Source: Natronolimnohabitans innermongolicus JCM 12255 (lineage in GTDB: Archaea > Halobacteriota > Halobacteria > Halobacteriales > Natrialbaceae). Taken from it: 47,275 nt of DNA. The DNA lies in the NCBI RefSeq assembly GCF_000337215.1, contig NZ_AOHZ01000002.1, positions 68,723-115,997 on the forward strand, given 5' to 3'. A program made the position numbers and the translations under genes. Shown here piece after piece: positions 1 through 40,179 of this stretch. How positions within the stretch are numbered: position 1 is the stretch's first letter; the number at the start of each line of letters is the position of its first letter. The notes under the pieces are model-generated. The model did no database searches and was not told where the DNA came from. It worked only from the letters and a program-made list of their open reading frames with translations.

Positions 1-18
1 GATGTGTATAAGAGACAG
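1..18 (+). other. Sequencing adapter remnant (Tn5/Nextera mosaic end)
   Basis: The first 18 bases, gatgtgtataagagacag, match the 3' 18 bases of the 19-base Tn5 mosaic end used in Nextera libraries. This is library sequence left at a contig end. It creates the spurious peptide starts MCIRDR and MYKRQ seen when the end is translated. Genomic sequence begins at about base 19, and anything to the left is unknown. Confidence 0.95.
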
Positions 19-10158: not shown

Positions 10159-11193
10159 ATGTCAGACGATCAATCGGACAGCGGCGTTCAGCGGCGAAGC
10201 GTGATGCAAACGATGGGCGCGGCCGGACTCGCGCTGCTGGGAACTGCCGGGGCGACGGCGGCCGCCGGACAGGAACAGGACGGCGACGCCCCTAACGGCC
10301 AGCCCAGCTACCAGCTCCCGGAACTCCCCTACGAGTACGACGCGCTCGAGCCCCACATCGACGGGCGCATCATGGAGCTTCACCACGGCGAGCACCACCA
10401 GGCGTACGTCGACGGGGCCAACGAGGCGCTCGAGGAGTTCGAGTCGATGCGCGAGGCCGGCGAGTTCGACGATATCCGCGCCGCCAAGCGCGACTTCTCG
10501 TTTAATTACTCGGGACACGTCAACCACACCGTTTTCTGGGAGAACATGAGCCCCGACGGCGGCGGTGAACCCGAGGGCGACCTCGCGAGCGCCATCGACG
10601 AACAGTTCGGCTCGTTCGAGGACTTCCAGGCGGAGTTCACGGCGACCGCGAACAACGTCGAGGGCGACGGCTGGGCGATGCTGTTCTACGAGCCGCTCGC
10701 GGACGCACTCGTGATCGGGCAGGTCGAAGGCCAGAACGAACTCGCCCACCAGCGGGCGATTCCGATCCTGACGCTCGACGTCTGGGAGCACGCCTACTAC
10801 CTCCAGTACGAGAACGACCGCGGAGCCTACGTCGACGAGTGGTGGAACGTCGTCGACTGGGAGGACGTCGGCGAGCGATACGAACTGTTGACCGACGCGG
10901 AGCCGGACGACCTCGAGCCCGACGACGAGCCGGCGGAAGACGACCCAGATGCGGACGAAGAGCCGCCGGAGGACGACCCAGACGCGGACGACGAACCGGT
11001 GGAAGAAGACGAGCCCGAAGCGAACGGAGAGCCGGACCCCGGCCCGAACGGGAACGGCGAGCCGGATGAACCGGGTGACGGCGGTCCGATGGAGCCCGGA
11101 GACGGTCCGATGGAACCCGGTGATGGAGGGCCGATGGAGCCCGGAGACGGTCCCGGCGCGAACAACGAGTCGATGGGTCCGGGCGGGAACTGA
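10159..11193 (+). CDS. sod: Exported Fe/Mn superoxide dismutase with acidic, repetitive C-terminal tail
   Basis: This 344-residue protein contains a complete Fe/Mn superoxide dismutase domain (residues about 50-235), which converts superoxide to oxygen and peroxide. The four metal ligands are visible: His75 (MELHHGEHH), His123 (GHVNHTVFW), Asp207 and His211 (LTLDVWEHAYYLQY). Two additions are unusual. The N-terminus has a Tat-type signal, Arg12-Arg13 followed by a hydrophobic stretch ending GATAAAG, so the enzyme is probably exported. The C-terminal 105 residues are low complexity: alternating DDEP/EDDPDADEE units, then Gly-Pro-rich GDGPMEPGD repeats. Cytoplasmic haloarchaeal SOD is about 200 residues. 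The ATG follows a GTTAACC-like weak TATA box by about 30 bases. It is probably monocistronic. Confidence 0.9.
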   Translation: MSDDQSDSGVQRRSVMQTMGAAGLALLGTAGATAAAGQEQDGDAPNGQPSYQLPELPYEYDALEPHIDGRIMELHHGEHHQAYVDGANEALEEFESMREAGEFDDIRAAKRDFSFNYSGHVNHTVFWENMSPDGGGEPEGDLASAIDEQFGSFEDFQAEFTATANNVEGDGWAMLFYEPLADALVIGQVEGQNELAHQRAIPILTLDVWEHAYYLQYENDRGAYVDEWWNVVDWEDVGERYELLTDAEPDDLEPDDEPAEDDPDADEEPPEDDPDADDEPVEEDEPEANGEPDPGPNGNGEPDEPGDGGPMEPGDGPMEPGDGGPMEPGDGPGANNESMGPGGN

Positions 11194-21772: not shown

Positions 21773-22870
21773 TCACTCGTCTCGAGTGGCGTCTCCGTCG
21801 CTATCGCCGTCGACACCGACGTCGACCACCGGCTCGTCGCGGTCGAAGCCGCGGACGAGTCCGAGCGCGATCGCGATATCACGGAGCTCGGGCGACGAAA
21901 TCGCGTCGAACGCGCGGAGATACTCGTTTGCGGCCGATTGCCGGCTCGCCGCGGTCGCGTGATCCTCATCGGCCGCCGCGTTAGCCGACTCCGCCATCGC
22001 TTCTGCGGCCGCCGCTGCGAGGGTCATTCGCTCGCGGAGTCCCTCGAGGTGCCCGCGAAGCCCCTCGAGGTCGACCGTCTCGACGCGCGGATCGGTCGCG
22101 AACGCGTCGCTTCGGTCGTGGATCGATTCGAACCGGGTTCGTGCGCCGTCGAATCCGTCGGTCGCGTCCCGAAACGCCGGTTCGGCGTCGCCGTAGCGAC
22201 CCGCGTTCCACGCGGTTCTCCCCGCGTCGAACCTGATGCCGGCCCGCTGTGCGCTTTCTTTGGCCTCGAGGACGTCGGACCACAGTTCGGTTCGCAGGGC
22301 GTACTGCGGGATCCGTCGCTCGGGATCGTGGGACATGATCTCCTGTGGCTCGTCGTCGTGCCCGAGGCCAAGGAGGTGGCCGAGTTCGTGTTTCGTCGTG
22401 ATACCGATCTTCCCGACCGGCCGGGACGCGGCGACCACGATCGCCTCCACCGTGGACGGGAGGCGGTATCCGGGCCTGAGCAGCGGCGCACAGCCCAGAA
22501 CGCGCTCGCTGTAGTTCTCGACGCCGCGGCAGTCGTCGGGCTGGTCGACGAAGCGCAGGCGGACGTCGGGGTCAGGATTGGAATCGGAATCGGAATCAGA
22601 ATCGAAATCTGAATCAGAGCCGGCGACGCCGCCCGAGACGACGTCGAAATCGACCGCAAAGCCGGCGTAGACCGCCGCGTGTTCGGTCCAATACTCGAGG
22701 GCCTCGCGAGCGACGGCGTGAACGTCGTGTGGCGTTTCGCTCTCGTCGTCGACCCGAACCGTAACGGTTCGGTCCGCGAACGGATGGCGCTCGAGTTGCG
22801 GAGCCGCACAGCCGGCGAGTCCAGAAAGGCTGACTCCGGTGACGGCGGCGAGTACGCGACGACGATGCAT
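21773..22870 (-). CDS. Metzincin-type metalloprotease lipoprotein
   Basis: This 365-residue predicted lipoprotein has an N-terminal HRRR, a hydrophobic stretch and the lipobox LAGC, a Tat-lipoprotein pattern. The zinc-protease signature is TTKHELGHLLGLGHDDE (HExxHxxGxxH), followed by a Met-turn candidate EIMSHD, typical of matrixin-like metzincins. A short Ser-Asp repeat (about residues 100-115, DNA about 22,575-22,625) splits the catalytic domain. The C-terminal 150 residues are alpha-helical and Ala-rich. The start at 22870 has a TATA box (minus-strand gggttaagt, 22895-22903) 28 bases upstream, excluding a longer start at 22921. It would act at the outer face of the membrane. Confidence 0.85.
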   Translation of the reverse strand: MHRRRVLAAVTGVSLSGLAGCAAPQLERHPFADRTVTVRVDDESETPHDVHAVAREALEYWTEHAAVYAGFAVDFDVVSGGVAGSDSDFDSDSDSDSNPDPDVRLRFVDQPDDCRGVENYSERVLGCAPLLRPGYRLPSTVEAIVVAASRPVGKIGITTKHELGHLLGLGHDDEPQEIMSHDPERRIPQYALRTELWSDVLEAKESAQRAGIRFDAGRTAWNAGRYGDAEPAFRDATDGFDGARTRFESIHDRSDAFATDPRVETVDLEGLRGHLEGLRERMTLAAAAAEAMAESANAAADEDHATAASRQSAANEYLRAFDAISSPELRDIAIALGLVRGFDRDEPVVDVGVDGDSDGDATRDE

Positions 22871-22974
22871 GGATATCCTACTGTTCAGTCTCCCACTTAA
22901 CCCAATCGAGCCCGGTCGCAAGTGCGGGCGTCCTCGAGTCGACCGCGAGCCGTTCCCGTCCGCGTTCGGACGGC

Positions 22975-24921: not shown

Positions 24922-26301
24922 CTACAGCAGTCGCGACCGAACCGCCTCGACGCCGTCGGGTAGCGCCTCGAGGCGAGCGCGCAGTTGCACGTAGTCTTCG
25001 AACTCGCCGTGCAGGGACACGGTTCGGCCGAGATCGTTCGCCGCCGCGCGCGCCGTCGCGTCGTCGGTGCGCTCGAGGGACCGAAGCGTCTCGTAGCGGA
25101 CGTGCGCGCCGGGGGACGGCCCGTCGATCGATTCGATGGCGGACTCGGCGGCGTCGATCGCCGCTTCTCGCTCGGCGCGAATCTCGGCCGCGCTCTCGAG
25201 TTCGTCGAGCGATCCGTCTTCGATTCGCTCGCGGATGCGTTCGAACGCCCGACGTCCCGTCTCGAAGCGGATCGCGGCGTCGATTCCCGCACCGAGCCGT
25301 TCGTCCGCGTCCGCGTCGAACAGGTCGTCTCGAGCCCGCTCGGCCGGTCGACCCGCCGCGTACAACACGTTCTCGAGTTCCGAACCCTCGAGGTCGGCGG
25401 GACGAGCCGCGTCGAACCAGTCGCCCTGGGGTTCGCCGAACGCGCTCGATTCGACGCGGTCGATCGTCTCCTCGATCGTCGCCTCGAACGCGGCTGTGTG
25501 ATCGGTCGAATCCTCGAGTTCCGCGTCGTGGCGCTCGTCGAGGTGATCCCAGACGTCGGCCGTCGCCGCGGCGAACTCGAGGTCGCCGGCGGCCGAGCCG
25601 ATATTGGTAACGTCGTCGTTCGAACTGACTCCCCAGCGGCCGAGCCGTCGGTCCACCTCGGAGAGATCCGCTTCGCGACGGCCGTAAAACAGCGCGGCGC
25701 GGAGTCGCTCGTCGGTGCCGTCGTCGCCGCGGTAGGTTTCGACGCCGCGTCGGTCCGCGAGCCGAGTGGAGACGGTCGCGTGTTCGGCTTCCAACTCGTC
25801 GGCGACCGACGGGTCGTCGATCGCGGCGACGGCGATCGCGGCCGCGCGGGCGTCGTCGCGCGCGTCGCGCGTCGTTCGGAGCGCGTGGTACAGCTGCCCG
25901 TTCGTTTCCGCTTGTCCGTTGTGCTCGTCGACGCGGGCTTCGACGTCGTCTCGCCGTTCGCGGGCCGCGTCCCGGTCGTCCACGATCGACTCGCGAACGA
26001 CGCCGTTGGGGATCGCCTCGGCGTCGAGCGGCTCCGGAAGCGCCGCGAGCAGTTCGTCGATGTCCTCGAGACCGTCGCTCACGGCGTCGTCCTCGGGGTT
26101 TACCGGCACTGGCGGCTCGACGGTCGGCGCGTCTTCCGTCAAGACGACTCGCGCGTCGGCGGCGGTAAACGACGGATGCGTCTCGCCGTCGTCGCTGATC
26201 CAGGGAATCACGGTACAGCCCGCGAGCGCGACGGTACCGAGCGTTCCAGCGGCTGCGAGAAATCGCCGTCGACCACGGCTTCGGTCCCGGGGGTCGGTCA
26301 T
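24922..26301 (-). CDS. Tat lipoprotein, helical, unknown function
   Basis: The 459-residue protein starts with a Tat lipoprotein signal ([21 protein letters not shown]). The rest is strongly acidic and predicted alpha-helical, rich in Glu/Asp/Arg/Ala with many Arg-Glu pairs ([38 protein letters not shown]). I recognise no catalytic motif. The ATG overlaps the end of the upstream lipoprotein gene by four bases (26298-26301), so the two are almost certainly co-expressed at the outer membrane face. Together they form an unrecognised two-lipoprotein operon. Confidence 0.75.
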
Positions 26302-27086
26302 CGCCGATCACCCGTTCGTTCGTCGCCGTGCTCTCCATCGTCTGCGCTATCATTCTCACCGTTCCGTCCGCCGCCGTTCCCGCCGCCATCCGCACCGTCG
26401 CGCTCGTCGTCGTCGTCCTCGCCACTCGAGTCCGTTTCGTCCCAGACTCGATCCGGACAGGATCCTGATTCACCGCCACCGCGCCTCGAGGGACGATCAC
26501 TGTACGGTCTGTCGACCCGGATGAAAAACGCCTGCATCTCCGTCGCATCGGCGTCGCATGGCGCTGTCGCCGGCTGTAACTCTCGACAGTACTGCGTTCG
26601 AAACTCGTCATCGCGCGCCGAGACGCTCACCAGCGCCCGGCGATAGCAGTCGTCGATCCGTCGCTGCTCGACCACGACCGTCTGTGACTCGAAGTCGGTC
26701 GTGTCGACGAACGCTCGCGCGTCGTCGACGCCGTCGCCGTCGTAGTCGATGCAGAGCGACTCGCCCGCCGCTTCGTCCGTGACGAAGACGGTCGATTGCG
26801 CTCGCGCTCTGGCGGTCGGACTGTCGTCGTATTCGGCTTCTTCGGCGTCGTCTGCGCTCGAAAAGACGAACGGCATCTCGCCGGGCGCCCGCACGGAGAC
26901 GTATTCGAGATCGTCGCTCGCCTCGTACGGTTCGCTGGAGACGCTCTCGTCTGCGTCACTGGAGGATTCGTACTCGATCCCCTCGATCGCCTCGACGCAG
27001 CCGGCGACCGACGCGGAGAGACAGCCGCCGGTGGCGGCCAGCAACCGTCTGCGCGATATATCGGTGGTGTGGGGAGTGGAGGGCAT
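26298..27086 (-). CDS. Tat lipoprotein, unknown function
   Basis: The 262-residue protein has the Tat pattern SRRRLLAATGG and lipobox VAGC. Its mature part has a conserved-looking core (YVSVRAPGEMPFVFSSADDA, STVFVTDEAAGESLCIDYDG) with several cysteines (DDCYRR, QYCREL, APCDAD), suggesting disulfides outside the cell. An Asp/Gly/Asn-rich low-complexity tail ends the protein. The start at 27086 has a TATA-like box (ttcttatcg on the minus strand) about 27 bases upstream, so the seven-codon extension to 27107 is unlikely. It is coupled to the next lipoprotein gene by an ATGA overlap. Confidence 0.75.
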   Translation of the reverse strand: MPSTPHTTDISRRRLLAATGGCLSASVAGCVEAIEGIEYESSSDADESVSSEPYEASDDLEYVSVRAPGEMPFVFSSADDAEEAEYDDSPTARARAQSTVFVTDEAAGESLCIDYDGDGVDDARAFVDTTDFESQTVVVEQRRIDDCYRRALVSVSARDDEFRTQYCRELQPATAPCDADATEMQAFFIRVDRPYSDRPSRRGGGESGSCPDRVWDETDSSGEDDDDERDGADGGGNGGGRNGENDSADDGEHGDERTGDRR

Positions 27087-27206
27087 TACTCGTGTCATAC
27101 TGGTCATTCGATAAGAACGTTCTGGAGCGCGAAGGCGCTCGAGTCCGCGGGCCGGACGGCGTCGCGTGTAGGTGATTTTATGGCACTGAATCGGCTACAT
27201 CGAGGT

Positions 27207-34559: not shown

Positions 34560-35450
34560 ATGGTTTCGGAATGCTTCGACGCCGAGCAGTGGGAGCCGGC
34601 CGCCCTGAACGACGAGTTCGACGACATCACCTACCACCGAGCGGTCGACTCCGGAACGGTTCGAATCGCGTTCGACCGCCCCGAGGTTCGCAACGCGTTC
34701 CGGCCCGGCACGGTCGACGAACTGTACGACGCGCTGGACCACGCCAAGCGCCAGACCGACGTCGGCTGCATCCTGCTGACGGGCAACGGGCCGTCGCCGA
34801 AAGACGGCGGCTGGGCGTTCTGTTCGGGCGGCGACCAGACGATCCGCGGCGAGGACGGCTACCAATACGAGGGCGACGAGGAGCGCGCATCGGAACAGGG
34901 ACGACTGCACATCCTCGAGGTGCAGCGTCTGATCCGTCACATTCCGAAGGTCGTCGTCTGCGTCGTCCCCGGCTGGGCCGTCGGCGGCGGTCACTCGCTG
35001 CACGTCGTCTGTGACCTCACGCTCGCGAGCGAGGAGCACGCGAAGTTCCTCCAGACCGACCCCGACGTGGCGAGCTACGACGCCGGCTTCGGCTCGGCCT
35101 ATCTCGCCAAACAGATCGGCCAGAAGAAAGCCCGCGAAGTCTTCTTCCTCGGGAAGACCTACGACGCCGAGGAGGCCGCGGAGATGGGCATGGTCAACGA
35201 AGCCGTCCCCCACGACGAACTCGAGGAGACCGCCCTCGAGTGGGGCGAGCGCATCAACTCCAAGAGCCCGACGGCGATGCGGATGCTGAAGTACGCGTTC
35301 AACATGACCGACGACGGCATGGTCGGCCAGCAGGTGTTCGCCGGCGAGGCGACCCGACTCGGCTACATGACCGACGAGGCCGCGGAGGGCCGCGACGCGT
35401 TCGTCGAGGGACGCGATCCCGACTTCGACGAGTATCCCTGGCACTACTGA
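34560..35450 (+). CDS. menB: MenB, 1,4-dihydroxy-2-naphthoyl-CoA synthase
   Basis: This 296-residue crotonase-family enzyme closes the naphthoquinone ring in menaquinone synthesis. Signature blocks are RIAFDRPEVRNAFRPGTVDE, WAFCSGGDQTIRG, VVPGWAVGGGHSLHVVCDLT and DPDVASYDAGFGSAYLAKQI, with the catalytic Tyr/Asp/Gly in SYDAGFGS. The start MVSECFDAEQW has atctattt at 34525-34532 about 31 bases upstream. The TGA stop at 35448-35450 overlaps the left arm of a hairpin repeat. Confidence 0.96.
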   Translation: MVSECFDAEQWEPAALNDEFDDITYHRAVDSGTVRIAFDRPEVRNAFRPGTVDELYDALDHAKRQTDVGCILLTGNGPSPKDGGWAFCSGGDQTIRGEDGYQYEGDEERASEQGRLHILEVQRLIRHIPKVVVCVVPGWAVGGGHSLHVVCDLTLASEEHAKFLQTDPDVASYDAGFGSAYLAKQIGQKKAREVFFLGKTYDAEEAAEMGMVNEAVPHDELEETALEWGERINSKSPTAMRMLKYAFNMTDDGMVGQQVFAGEATRLGYMTDEAAEGRDAFVEGRDPDFDEYPWHY

Positions 35451-35531
35451 TACGGGCTGCTGTACCGGTTTCTTGGCGCAACCGCAAGGTGGGCCGCGGT
35501 TGCGTCAGAACGACGTACAGTAGTCCGTATC
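35449..35531. repeat. Hairpin repeat starting in the menB stop codon
   Basis: The outer arms are gatacgggctgctgtac (35449-35465) and gtacagtagtccgtatc (35515-35531). They pair over 17 positions with two G-T wobbles if transcribed. The inner arms cgcaaccgc (35477-35485) and gcggttgcg (35496-35504) pair perfectly around a 10-base loop. The structure could end or stabilise menB mRNA. Confidence 0.65.
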
Positions 35532-35567
35532 GGGTGGGCTGCTGTACCGGTTTCTCGGCGCAACCGC
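35454..35567 (+). repeat. 32-bp direct repeat after menB
   Basis: Positions 35454-35485 and 35536-35567 are the same 32-mer, starting gggctgctgtaccggtttct, with one T/C difference. The first copy forms the left half of the hairpin, and the second stands alone just after it. This looks like an internal duplication of a palindromic element or two nested copies. The remaining bases to 35779 show no gene. Confidence 0.7.
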
Positions 35568-35779
35568 GACCCGCGATTCGAGTCGCTCACCGCGCCTCGA
35601 GCGCCAAAACTCAGAAATATTCTCCGCTATCTACGACATCGACGTCGATCGCCGGCGATGGTGATCGGACCGAAACCGCCATGACCACCACGATATCCGT
35701 CGAATCGTGCGATCACCGGTGACGGTAGATTCGGTCCGAAGGGCAATGCTTTGGGGTTCGCGTCCCTGAGTGGCGACCA

Positions 35780-37036
35780 GTGACCCTCCCCGATCGGTCC
35801 GCGCTGTCCCGGCGCGACTACCTCCGCGCACTGGTAGCCGTCGGCGGCGCGACCGCGCTCAGCGCGTGCACGTCCGAAAGCGACGAGGTCGAGGTGCCGA
35901 CCGGCACCGACGACCCCGAGTCGCTGCCGGAGCGCCAGCACGCCTGGAACGAGGCCCTCTCGCGGGACGACGACGGGAACGTCAGTCCGCCGGAACACCA
36001 CGTGCTGGTCGCGCTGTCGCTTGCGAGCGAGCCGACCGACGAGGTCCGTGAGCGAGTCGAGGACGCGTTACAGACCCTCGAGCGCGCCTACGAGTGGAGC
36101 ACCGAGGGACTGCTCTTCACGCTCGGCTACACGCCGGCGTACTTCGACCGGTTCGACGGGGAGCTCCCCGAATCGGTCGACCTTCCGGAGCCGACGGCCA
36201 TCGTCGGCGAGGTCGACGAATTCGACGAGTTCGACGCGTTACTTCACCTGGCCAGCGACCACTCGCAGGTCGTCCTCGAGGCCGAGGAGGGGCTGTTCGG
36301 CGAGCACGACGAACTGAACGGACTCGCGGTCGAGACCGACCTGACCGGCGTCTTCGAGCGCGTCGACGAGCGTCGGCGGACCGGGTTCGTCGGCGAGGGG
36401 CTGCCCGCCGAACACGCCGCCCTCGGCGGCGTTCCCGATTCGGTTCCCGACGACGCCCCGTTCTTCATGGGCTTTCGCTCGGGGTTCGACGAGAGCCAGG
36501 CGACCGAGGATCGGGTGACGATAGACGACGGCCCCTTCGTCGACGGGACGACCGAACACGTCTCCTCGATGCGGATTCAGCTCAGTCAGTGGTTCGATCA
36601 GGAGAGCCACGAGATGCGCGTCGCGAAGACGTTCAGTCCGGAACACGCCGACGACGAACTGGTCGGCGAGGTCGGCGAGAAGCTGTCGACGTCGACGGCG
36701 CTGACGACCGAGCGCATCGAGGCGACCGAAGACGACGCCCGCAGCGGCGTCGTCGGCCACGCCCAGAAGGCCGCTCGAGCCCGTGAGGACGGAGAGCCGT
36801 TGTTGCTGCGACGGGACTTCAACACCGTCGACGGCGACGAGCCGGGGCTTCACTTCCTCTCGCTGCAGGCGGAAATCGACGCGTTTGTTCGCGTACGCGA
36901 GACGATGGAGGGCGACGACCTCGGCCTGCCGTCGCTGAACAACGGCATCACGGGCTACATCTTCCCCGACCGACGCGGGAACTTTCTGGTGCCGCCGCGC
37001 TCGCTTCGGGCGTTGCCTCCGCCGGATCCGGGCTGA
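35780..37036 (+). CDS. Exported DyP-peroxidase-like protein (DUF7405-like)
   Basis: This 418-residue protein starts at GTG with a Tat signal (SRRDYLRALVAVGGATALSA, then a Cys that could be lipidated: ALSAC). The body resembles dye-decolourising peroxidases: EHHVLVALSLASEP, STEGLLFTLGYTPAYFDRF, and PFFMGFRSGFDESQATED at the place of the GxxDG heme motif. The key Asp of GxxDG is not present (GFRSGF), and His residues in QESHEMRVAKTFSPEH are candidates for the heme ligand. It heads a three-gene exported cassette with a P19-like lipoprotein, recalling the EfeB (DyP)-containing iron uptake systems. The role is inferred. Confidence 0.65.
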   Translation: MTLPDRSALSRRDYLRALVAVGGATALSACTSESDEVEVPTGTDDPESLPERQHAWNEALSRDDDGNVSPPEHHVLVALSLASEPTDEVRERVEDALQTLERAYEWSTEGLLFTLGYTPAYFDRFDGELPESVDLPEPTAIVGEVDEFDEFDALLHLASDHSQVVLEAEEGLFGEHDELNGLAVETDLTGVFERVDERRRTGFVGEGLPAEHAALGGVPDSVPDDAPFFMGFRSGFDESQATEDRVTIDDGPFVDGTTEHVSSMRIQLSQWFDQESHEMRVAKTFSPEHADDELVGEVGEKLSTSTALTTERIEATEDDARSGVVGHAQKAARAREDGEPLLLRRDFNTVDGDEPGLHFLSLQAEIDAFVRVRETMEGDDLGLPSLNNGITGYIFPDRRGNFLVPPRSLRALPPPDPG

Positions 37037-37158
37037 GTGCCGGCCGAGCGAGCGAGACGAGACGTCCCTGACGAGGACCGACGAACGACGACCACCGCCG
37101 ACAACCGATCGACGACCACCGACCACCAACGACCGAAACGCACACGACAATACCACAG

Positions 37159-38445
37159 ATGCAGGACAACGACATCGACCGACGAACGGTACTCGCGCTT
37201 ACGGGAACGACCGCCGGCACACTCGCGCTCGCCGGCTGTCTCGGCAACGGCGACGATGACGACGAGAACGGGGACGAAGACGACCGAACCGACGAAAACG
37301 GCGACGACGCGCCAGCAGATCTCTGGGAACCCGTCGAGGATCCACCGGACGCGGTGTACGTGCCGACGCATCGCGAATCGATGATCATGCTCGAGTCGCT
37401 CGACGCTGGCGAGTACCGAATCGCGCCGATGCTGTCGTACCCGCATTCGTTCTGGACCGTCGCCGGCAGCGACGTTAGTCGGGAGCTTCCCGAGGACATG
37501 AGCGGCGTCCACATGATGTTCTCCCTCTGGGACCCCGAGACCGACACCGTGCTCCCGGCCAATATCGGCGCATCGATCGAAGTCTTCTACGAGGGCGAGC
37601 GGGTCGACCAACGCGACTCCTGGTCGATGATCTCTCAGGAGATGGGCTTTCACTTCGGCGACAACGTCTCCCTCGAGGAGGACGGGACGTACGAGGTCGA
37701 GGTCGATCTGCCGGCGCTGTCGGCCCGAACGACCGGCGATCTCGAGGGGCGATTCACCGACGACGAGACCGTGTCCTTCGAGTTCGAGTACGATCAGGCG
37801 TTCCGAGACGACGTCTCCGACGTCACGTGGATCGACGAGGACGAGTGGGGCGACCGCGGCGCGCTCGAGCCGATGGACCACGGCGGCCACGACGAACACG
37901 GCGAGCACGACGAACACGGCGAACACGGAAATCACGACGACGAACATGGCGAACACGAGCACGGCGAGCACGACCACCATCACGTCCCCTACTCGCAGTT
38001 GCCCGCAGTCGACGCGTTCCCCGGCACGCTCCTCGTCGAGGCGGACGGCAACGGCGAGCCGCCCGCGGAGACCGACGACCTCCCGCGAAGCGGCGACGCC
38101 GCGGTCCTCGCGACGCTGCTCGAGTCCGACTCCCGACTCGCCGAGGACGGCCGCTATCTGCTCGTCTCGCCGCGGACGCCGTACAATCGCGTCCCGCTAC
38201 CGGAGATGAGCCTGAACGCGACGGTCGAACGCGACGGCGAGACGGTCCACGACGCCCTCGATCTCGAGCAGACGGTCGACGACGAGTACGGCCACCACTA
38301 CGGCGCGTCGCTCGCGGAGGTCGAACCGGGCGATACGGTCACGCTCGAGATCACGGCGCCGCCCCAGATCGCCCGCCACCAGGGGTACGAAACGGCGTTC
38401 CTCGAGATGGATCCGATCGAACTGACGGTTCCGGAAACCCAATGA
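37159..38445 (+). CDS. P19-like iron-binding lipoprotein with His-rich linker
   Basis: This 428-residue lipoprotein (DRRTVLALTGTTAGTLALAG then Cys-Leu-Gly) is acidic after the lipobox. Its first domain (about 60-230) has YVPTHRESMIMLESLDAGEY, PMLSYPHSFWTVAGSDV and HMMFSLWDPETDTVLPA, resembling periplasmic P19/Tp34-type iron transport proteins. About residues 236-276 form a linker in which His, Asp, Glu and Gly alternate (DHGGHDEHGEHDEHG and onward, to HDHHHV), a strong divalent-metal-binding candidate. A second beta domain follows. It is 122 bases after the DyP-like gene and overlaps the next gene by four bases. Confidence 0.75.
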   Translation: MQDNDIDRRTVLALTGTTAGTLALAGCLGNGDDDDENGDEDDRTDENGDDAPADLWEPVEDPPDAVYVPTHRESMIMLESLDAGEYRIAPMLSYPHSFWTVAGSDVSRELPEDMSGVHMMFSLWDPETDTVLPANIGASIEVFYEGERVDQRDSWSMISQEMGFHFGDNVSLEEDGTYEVEVDLPALSARTTGDLEGRFTDDETVSFEFEYDQAFRDDVSDVTWIDEDEWGDRGALEPMDHGGHDEHGEHDEHGEHGNHDDEHGEHEHGEHDHHHVPYSQLPAVDAFPGTLLVEADGNGEPPAETDDLPRSGDAAVLATLLESDSRLAEDGRYLLVSPRTPYNRVPLPEMSLNATVERDGETVHDALDLEQTVDDEYGHHYGASLAEVEPGDTVTLEITAPPQIARHQGYETAFLEMDPIELTVPETQ

Positions 38446-39080
38446 CTGGACCGACGCGAACGGCGCTCTCCGCCGTCCTCGCGGTCGCACTCGCCGGCGT
38501 CCTCGTCGTCGGCCTCGCTGGATCAGCCGCCGCCATGGACAGCACGATGACTCTTCGGTTCGATCCGAGCGACCTCGAGGCCGAGAACGGCGACGAGGTG
38601 ACGATCGATCTGGTGGCGAGCACCCACGGGAACCTCGTCGGCAACGGTATCGTCGCGCTCGAGTCGACGATCGAGTACGACTCGGACGTGCTCACCGTCA
38701 CCGATGTCGAACACGGGCCGATGCTCGCCGCGGGCGACGACGACGCCGAGGTCGACGGCACCGAGGAGATCGACGACGAGGCCGGCGCGGTGACGATCGA
38801 ACAGGAGCGCGTCCCCGAGGGCGACGGCGCGAAGGCGACCGAGACCGCGGCGACGCTCACGTTCGAGGTCGCCGACGACGCGCCGTCGACGAACGAAACC
38901 CTCGAGATTACGGACTCCTCGGCCATGTATCCGAGCGGCTACTCCCTGAACGCGATCGAGCGCGAGGGGTCGATCGAGATCGACGGCACCGACGACGGCG
39001 ACACCGTCCCCGGCTTCGCGCCGCTTGCAGCGCTCGCCGCGCTCGCAGCGACCCTCTGGCTCGTCGTCCGTCGCGACTAA
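38442..39080 (+). CDS. Cohesin-like surface protein with PGF-CTERM anchor
   Basis: This 212-residue protein has an N-terminal Sec signal (SAVLAVALAGVLVVGLAGSA, then AAAM). A beta-sandwich follows that resembles cohesin or CARDB-like domains (ALESTIEYDSDVLTVTDVEH, ETAATLTFEVADDAPST). It ends DTVPGFAPLAALAALAATLW and VVRRD, a PGF-CTERM signal processed by archaeosortase A for lipid anchoring. The ATG overlaps the P19-like gene stop (ATGA), so they are translationally coupled, and the protein probably helps assemble the metal-binding complex at the cell surface. The partner is inferred. Confidence 0.75.
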   Translation: MTGPTRTALSAVLAVALAGVLVVGLAGSAAAMDSTMTLRFDPSDLEAENGDEVTIDLVASTHGNLVGNGIVALESTIEYDSDVLTVTDVEHGPMLAAGDDDAEVDGTEEIDDEAGAVTIEQERVPEGDGAKATETAATLTFEVADDAPSTNETLEITDSSAMYPSGYSLNAIEREGSIEIDGTDDGDTVPGFAPLAALAALAATLWLVVRRD

Positions 39081-39237: not shown

Positions 39238-40179
39238 ATGAGTACGGCCGAGGTCGATATCTCGCGGACGAAAGCGTGGGTGATGGCGGCGCGCCCGCAG
39301 ACGCTGCCCGCCGCCGCGGCGCCGGTGATCGTCGGGACGGGACTGGCGATCTACGAGGGCGTCTTCGCCCCGTTGCCCGCGCTGCTGGCGTTCGTCGGTG
39401 CGGCGCTGATTCAGATCGGAACGAACTTCGCGAACGACTACTACGACGCGATCAAGGGCGCGGACACGGACGAGCGCGAGGGGTTCACCCGGGTCACGCA
39501 GGCGGGGATCATCTCCGCCGAGCAGGTGAAACTGGCGACGCTCGTCACCTTCGCGCTCGCGATTCTGACGGGATCCTACCTCGTCTACGTCGGCGGCCTG
39601 CCGATCCTGGTCGTCGGCCTGGTGAGCGTCTTCTGCGGCTGGGCTTACACGGGCGGTCCCTACCCGCTCGGCTACCACGGACTGGGCGATCTGTTCGTCT
39701 TCGTCTTCTTCGGCGTCGTCGCCGTGATGGGGACGTTTTACGTGCAGGCCGCGGCGGTGCTCGCGGAGCCGCTCGCGACCTCCATCCCCGAGGGAACGGT
39801 CACGCGGGAGGCGTTCCTTGCCAGCCTCCCGGTCGCCGGCATCTCGACGGCCATCCTCGTCGTCAACAACGTTCGGGACATGGAGACCGACACCGACGCC
39901 GGCAAGCGGACGCTCGCGGTCCGCATCGGCTACCGCTGGAGCCGCGTCCAGTACGTCGCCATGCTCGCACTCGCCTATCTGACGCCGCTGTGGCTCTGGC
40001 TCGGCGAGGGATTCGGCCCGGGCGTCTTGCTCCCGCTGCTCTCGGCGCCCTACGCCGCGGTGATCACTCGTACCGTCTGTACGGGAACCGACGGCGAAGC
40101 GCTGAATCCGGCGCTCGAGGGCACCGGCAAACTGCTCGCCCTTTACGCCGTCCTGTTCGCCGCGGGGGTGGCCGTCTGA
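39238..40179 (+). CDS. menA: MenA, 1,4-dihydroxy-2-naphthoate polyprenyltransferase
   Basis: This 313-residue integral membrane enzyme of the UbiA family attaches the polyprenyl chain to 1,4-dihydroxy-2-naphthoate. Two Asp-rich Mg-prenyl-diphosphate motifs are visible: [20 protein letters not shown] and [20 protein letters not shown]. About eight hydrophobic helices follow the usual layout, and the N-terminus [16 protein letters not shown] is typical. The chosen start [12 protein letters not shown] at 39238 removes six unlikely upstream codons. The menC ATG follows the stop by one base. Confidence 0.95.

Follow-up and report, generated by a model that had tools for sequence, protein, structure and literature searches.

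The locus and its three genes

The window analysed here is a stretch of 47,275 nucleotides from the haloarchaeon Natronolimnohabitans innermongolicus JCM 12255 (contig NZ_AOHZ01000002.1, positions 68,723 to 115,997), and the subject of this report is a set of three consecutive genes within it, numbered 1 to 3, which may together form a metal-redox module at the cell surface. All three open reading frames were verified, all on the forward strand (Table 1), and they are flanked by menB (34560-35450) and menA (39238-40179), both of which pass equivalog models. An earlier reading of the same DNA, made from its letters alone (the sequence-only reading), had already placed the trio between these two genes, and had described it as an exported DyP-like protein, a P19-like lipoprotein with a dense His linker and a PGF-CTERM surface protein, with archaeal anchoring. 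Most of this description held up. Specifically, gene 1 belongs to the DUF7405 family and has a DyP/EfeB fold according to structure prediction and comparison, with the correction that it is itself a lipoprotein of the twin-arginine translocation (Tat) type; gene 2 is a lipoprotein with a P19 fold and the His linker; gene 3 is recognised by the Pfam Cohesin model, and its tail is PGF-CTERM-like, scoring just under the cut-off of the corresponding model. The archaeal anchoring is supported by the lipoboxes of genes 1 and 2, the PGF-CTERM-like tail of gene 3 and an archaeosortase A encoded in the same genome (E 1.8e-99).

Table 1. Features of the three-gene locus (window coordinates) and examples of the TM474 family from other haloarchaea (coordinates within the named loci); AF2, AlphaFold2; pLDDT, predicted local distance difference test; VIA, VIA-align.
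Feature	Position	Strand	Evidence
Promoter-like conserved block GACGGTAGATTCGGTCCGAAGGGCAATGCTTTGG upstream of gene 1	35721..35754	+	Shared by upstream regions of many Natrialbaceae loci; judged by eye, unscored
Gene 1, DUF7405 Tat lipoprotein with DyP/EfeB fold	35780..37036	+	PF24152 E 5e-147; AF2 pLDDT 86.3; VIA Z (see text)
Gene 1 twin-arginine motif and lipobox RRDYLRALVAVGGATALSAC	35810..35869	+	R11, R12, A29, C30 invariant in 45 sequences
Codon of Ser234, position of EfeB D235 (catalytic distal Asp)	36479..36481	+	hhalign mapping
Codon of His327, aligned to EfeB H329 (proximal haem ligand)	36758..36760	+	Conserved 115/115
Codon of Arg344, aligned to EfeB R347 (distal Arg)	36809..36811	+	Conserved 115/115
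Gene 2, Tat lipoprotein: P19-like domain, His linker, DUF7350 domain	37159..38445	+	PF10634, PF24041; AF2 pLDDT 83.9
Gene 2 P19/FtrA/FetP-like domain, residues 72-218	37372..37812	+	VIA Z 13.1 to FetP 3nrq; FtrA profile match E 6e-7
Gene 2 His-rich linker	37876..37983	+	14 His in 40 residues
Gene 2 DUF7350 domain, an Ig-like beta sandwich in which H380 and H407 are conserved	38062..38427	+	PF24041 E 6.5e-55
Gene 3, cohesin-like surface protein	38442..39080	+	PF00963 34.1 bits, cut-off 24.1
Gene 3 PGF-CTERM-like tail, archaeosortase A type	38997..39077	+	TIGR04126 22.2 bits, under cut-off 24.5
TM474 example, L120	8274-9695
TM474 example, L113	10434-11945
TM474 example, L133	7325-8734

A DyP-fold lipoprotein without the distal aspartate

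The N-terminus of gene 1 carries a pair of arginines at residues 11-12 and an LSAC lipobox with its cysteine at residue 30. An AlphaFold2 model built from an alignment of 45 relatives has a mean pLDDT of 86.3; when it is searched with Foldseek, DyP peroxidases rank best, with E-values as low as 1e-15, and in VIA-align comparisons EfeB-type and class-A DyPs score Z about 26-27 with ~300 residues aligned, so the DyP-like fold survives the structure-prediction check. The Pfam Dyp_perox_C cut-off is passed by one relative of gene 1 (locus L082).

The active site was mapped by an hhalign profile alignment to Escherichia coli EfeB (MG1655 genome), with no structure inspected. In EfeB, H329 is the proximal haem ligand, R347 the distal Arg and D235 the catalytic distal Asp of the GxxDG motif. 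The counterparts of the first two, His327 and Arg344 in gene 1, are present in every DUF7405 copy compared. At the position of the third, residue 234 of gene 1, the 115 copies have Ser (86), Ala (27) or Asn (2) and never Asp, as judged from the profile alignment only. According to a review of the DyP family, the distal Asp is found almost without exception, with only rare Asp-to-Glu changes (PMC7611857). In KpDyP this Asp deprotonates H2O2 and the Arg maintains the shape of the pocket; when the Asp is replaced by Ala, the architecture of the active site stays as it was, the channel becomes wider and Compound I is reduced faster (PMC6153280). The Asp-free pocket of DUF7405 therefore need not be dead.

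Compared with EfeB/YcdB and the class-A DyPs (TIGR01412; PDB 3o72, 6jbn, 4grc), gene 1 thus shares the DyP fold over almost its whole mature length, the Tat export signal, the proximal His and the distal Arg, but differs by the Ser/Ala/Asn at the distal Asp of the GxxDG motif, by its lipid anchor and by having no EfeU/FTR1 partner. It also remains far under the cut-off of the EfeB equivalog (11.4 bits vs 428).

A P19-like domain with methionines in place of iron-site acids

Gene 2 has a Tat/lipoprotein signal of its own, in which R8, R9, A25, G26 and C27 are conserved among relatives. It passes the Pfam Iron_transport/P19 model (PF10634, 32.1 bits vs cut-off 21), and the model of residues 72-218 reaches Z 12-13 against structures of the P19/FetP/FtrA fold (VIA-align). 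In the alignment to FtrA, H118 falls on the His of DVHLEAD, M157 on the Met of PMV and H165 on the His of GPHYG; these three residues correspond to the copper-site positions H42, M88 and H95 of P19/FtrA (the P19 numbering being taken partly from the titles of structure records of P19 variants). Two iron-site acids of P19, E44 and D92, face M120 and M162, and Met occupies these two positions in 98-100% of gene 2 copies. All five residues (H118, M157, H165, M120 and M162) are invariant or nearly so among relatives. The iron/manganese site of P19 is described in PMC9174327.

Towards P19, FetP, FtrA and Tp34 (PF10634; PDB 3nrq, 3lzl, 8vv5), then, gene 2 shows the same fold, a profile match and three copper-type ligands, but it differs by the Met at two iron-site acids, by the additional DUF7350 domain and His linker, by being a Tat lipoprotein, and by the missing FTR1 permease in the haloarchaea searched. 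The DUF7350 domain resembles an immunoglobulin (Ig)-like beta sandwich, the structural matches being Ig-like but weak (Z up to 7.8). A second DUF7350 protein is encoded elsewhere in the same genome (G000:C11:45329; L112:6949-8163), without DUF7405 nearby.

The start of gene 3 and the stop of gene 2 share 4 bases, and the same overlap is found in 21 of 23 relatives; moreover, every genome with the gene 3 family also has DUF7350 (79/79). Gene 3 is similar to the archaeal PGF-CTERM surface proteins with cohesin domains in its Pfam Cohesin match, its PGF-type tail and the presence of archaeosortase A, and differs from them by its coupling to DUF7350.

Co-occurrence of the genes among haloarchaea

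The distribution of the families was surveyed in 292 haloarchaeal genomes, using raw genome counts that ignore the kinship between genomes. DUF7405 was found in 262 of these and DUF7350 in 255; both are present in 254 genomes, neither in 29, and only 9 (8 + 1) are discordant, which bears out the co-occurrence of genes 1 and 2. Sampling of the rest of the phylum yielded no genome with DUF7405. Among 80 named loci, DUF7350 lies beside or near DUF7405 in 64, and a cohesin gene is present too in 27, so the trio is not a chance grouping. The DUF7405/DUF7350 pair is therefore almost a haloarchaeal core, kept by nearly all aerobic haloarchaea. COX1 is missing from four of the 292 genomes, and all four belong to the 29 that have neither gene (P 8e-5, no tree correction). 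This hints at a function linked to aerobic life, although perhaps only about three independent losses are involved.

This pattern of loss also fits a function in peroxide defence only, with DUF7405 acting as a surface haem peroxidase, DUF7350 and the cohesin-like protein holding or maturing it, and any metal binding being structural or passive. The DyP fold with its His and Arg retained fits such a role, as does the superoxide dismutase encoded elsewhere in the window, which is probably exported and suggests exported redox defence in this strain. However, the Asp that deprotonates H2O2 in KpDyP (PMC6153280) has been lost, so that slow peroxide activation is predicted, and this reading gives no reason why DUF7405 should so nearly always be paired with a lipoprotein that has a metal site. 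Peroxide defence as the sole function hence appears improbable.

Permeases and the question of iron uptake

The sequence-only reading had likened the trio to bacterial iron uptake based on EfeB and P19, and had noted that no permease was visible. The second point was confirmed, since FTR1 (PF03239) has no match in this genome or in any of 145 haloarchaea, with control genomes positive. The likeness to iron uptake holds in part: both folds are there, but the distal Asp occurs in 0 of 115 copies, the iron-site acids have been replaced by Met, and FTR1 is absent. Because gene 1 lacks the distal Asp, gene 2 the two iron-site acids and the haloarchaea searched an FTR1 partner, membership in EfeUOB or in FetMP/FtrABCD is not claimed here, even though the predicted folds make chemistry of the Efe/P19 kind plausible.

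A possible membrane partner was encountered in other haloarchaea. This family, TM474, consists of proteins with 12 transmembrane helices (12-TM) and no Pfam or NCBIfam match, and has three invariant His, all in the later part of the protein. It is confined to genomes with DUF7350 (207/207) and adjoins that gene in 33 of 36 compared pairs; these pairs were chosen from the listed matches and not at random, so they demonstrate recurrence and not a rate. TM474 is absent from the genome studied here and is therefore not required there, which excludes it as the permease of this particular cassette and leaves it as a candidate elsewhere only.

The reading of the trio as an archaeal equivalent of EfeUOB or FetMP/FtrABCD, in which Fe(II) would be captured and oxidised, or haem iron extracted, and passed to an unrecognised permease such as TM474, can draw on the DyP/EfeB and P19 folds, the PF10634 score above its cut-off, the strict association of TM474 with DUF7350 and their frequent adjacency, and the HiPIP or ferritin-like genes close to some copies. 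Iron acquisition is nonetheless considered unlikely in view of the absence of FTR1 from all haloarchaea searched and of TM474 from this genome, the nearly universal Met at the two iron-site positions, and the failure of gene 1 on the EfeB model. In addition, three FecCD-type permeases are encoded in this genome, so ordinary siderophore-type uptake is available to it.

Neighbouring genes in other genomes

Many loci have, upstream of DUF7405, an HVO_0163-type winged helix-turn-helix regulator and a membrane protein of the DUF7471 family. On plasmid pNG600 of Haloarcula marismortui the regulator is followed by DUF7405, two DUF7350 genes, a hypothetical protein of the 12-TM type and then a heavy-metal ATPase with a CDF transporter after it; the Haloferax lucentense locus runs from DUF7350 through the 12-TM protein and a heavy-metal ATPase to HiPIP. 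The neighbouring genes elsewhere thus point to metal, without indicating which. As a separate observation, six Halovenus-type loci have a small Tat lipoprotein (~180 amino acids, with HWH/HYH motifs and no family match) directly after DUF7350 (e.g. L063:12536-13060 and L065:12396-12938).

Proposed function

The reading preferred here, tentatively and with somewhat less than an even chance of being right, is that genes 1 to 3 encode a surface-tethered module of a haem protein and a metallolipoprotein, which in aerobic haloarchaea would oxidise a reactive metal, with copper the likeliest, and buffer it. It builds on the predicted folds, the conservation of the ligands, the co-occurrence and operon structure of the genes, and the absence of FTR1.

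In such a module, DUF7405 would fold and be loaded with haem in the cytoplasm, and would then be exported through Tat and anchored by lipid. The DUF7350 protein, as the second Tat lipoprotein, would hold metal in its P19-like domain through His and Met ligands, with further metal possibly held by the His linker where it is present. The cohesin-like protein, presumably anchored by archaeosortase, may retain the gene 2 lipoprotein on the S-layer side. More specifically, the haem pocket with only its distal Arg could use H2O2 to oxidise the metal on the P19-like domain, the likeliest reaction being Cu(I) to Cu(II), after which the oxidised metal would be buffered by the His sites. The outcome may be a surface shielded from Fenton-type chemistry, or metal delivered in a safe state. 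Haem loading, the reaction itself, the identity of the metal and the formation of a complex are the inferred part of this proposal.

Several observations weigh against the proposal. The fourth copper ligand of FtrA faces a non-His residue of gene 2, in a part where the alignment is weak. Many copies from Natrialbaceae have a strong His linker and most copies of other haloarchaea have none, so the linker does not belong to the core of gene 2 function. One genus (g28) contains many aerobic genomes without the pair, which is therefore not essential for aerobic life. Lastly, the P-type ATPases near DUF7350 or the pair in Haloferax and Haloarcula carry a TM7 lysine and a TM8 DAG motif, and ZIP-like genes (named by sequence inspection) and CDF genes occur in such metal islands. 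In the established classification of such pumps the two motifs point to the Zn/Cd type (P1B-2-like) rather than to copper, and a copper reading of these ATPases was dropped for this reason.

Zinc or cadmium buffering is the explanation that these neighbours would favour: DUF7350 would be a surface lipoprotein that binds Zn(II), with the haem protein as its sensor or structural partner. ATPases with P1B-2-like motifs are encoded close to DUF7350 in Haloferax and close to the pair on pNG600 of Haloarcula, with a CDF gene alongside on the latter, and a ZIP-like gene is seen in two loci; His-rich linkers bind zinc well. Yet several of the conserved ligand-like positions hold Met, which favours softer metals; a link to ATPases was found in only 4 of 98 loci at the search sensitivity used; and this reading assigns no role to a haem protein. 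This explanation is unlikely, and the least probable of those weighed.

On a broader view, the trio may be seen as one form of a haloarchaeal, FTR1-independent metal-redox system of the cell surface, composed of a DyP-fold haem lipoprotein without the distal Asp, a Met/His metallolipoprotein derived from P19 and, in most genera, a new 12-TM family with three invariant His as membrane partner; in the men-cluster version of Natrialbaceae, a cohesin-like surface protein would be coupled to the metallolipoprotein. This broader view is possible, though less likely than not. The suggestion that the system is new also needs qualification: public haloarchaeal records label DUF7405 as ‘Dyp-type peroxidase’ and DUF7350 as ‘iron transporter’, and its novelty is limited because these are Pfam families found throughout the class that carry such labels already. 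In the literature searched, no paper appears under the name DUF7405 or DUF7350, and the active-site losses, the pairing and the partner protein are not described there. The main text of proteomes of Haloferax under iron starvation and of Halobacterium under copper names no P19 or peroxidase; with their locus tags unmapped, these give no evidence either way.

The men setting and other features of the window

Besides menB and menA, menD and menF were confirmed in the window by equivalog models, and menC and menE are best matches with scores below their own equivalog cut-offs. Among the 80 named loci, those with all three genes are often inside men, but not always: in several Natrialbaceae (L038-L041) the trio occurs without men genes within the fetched stretch, and outside this family the DUF7405/DUF7350 pair sits in quite different surroundings. 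A special meaning of the men location was accordingly rejected; the placement is one among several arrangements and no functional meaning is attributed to it. Upstream of gene 1, a convincing palindrome that could serve as a metal-regulator box was not found, only the promoter-like block. The interval between menB and gene 1 also holds a 32-base direct repeat (35454-35485 and 35536-35567, 97% identical, spacing 82).

Elsewhere in the window, positions 10159-11193 encode an Fe/Mn-type superoxide dismutase whose N-terminus is twin-arginine-like and which has an extra part at its C-terminus; it is probably exported and scores under the cut-off of the haloarchaeal superoxide dismutase equivalog. 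Further lipobox proteins lie on the reverse strand at 21773-22921, 24922-26301 and 26298-27107, one with a weak metalloprotease match and two without a family match. At the very start of the window (1-18; L137, G000:C2:68600-68900, around 91-142), facing Nextera transposase ends, CTGTCTCTTATACACATCT ... N ... GATGTGTATAAGAGACAG, indicate a library artefact or a false join, and synteny across that point is therefore not trustworthy.

Significance

The proposal provides a concrete, testable hypothesis for two families of unknown function that are near-universal in aerobic haloarchaea. A class-wide clade of the DyP fold with Ser, Ala or Asn at the distal Asp would be a natural test of the role of that residue, and a P19 domain with Met in place of the iron-site acids would exemplify a metal switch in a known iron-uptake scaffold. 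The label ‘iron transporter’, carried by many haloarchaeal genes, would then need revising.

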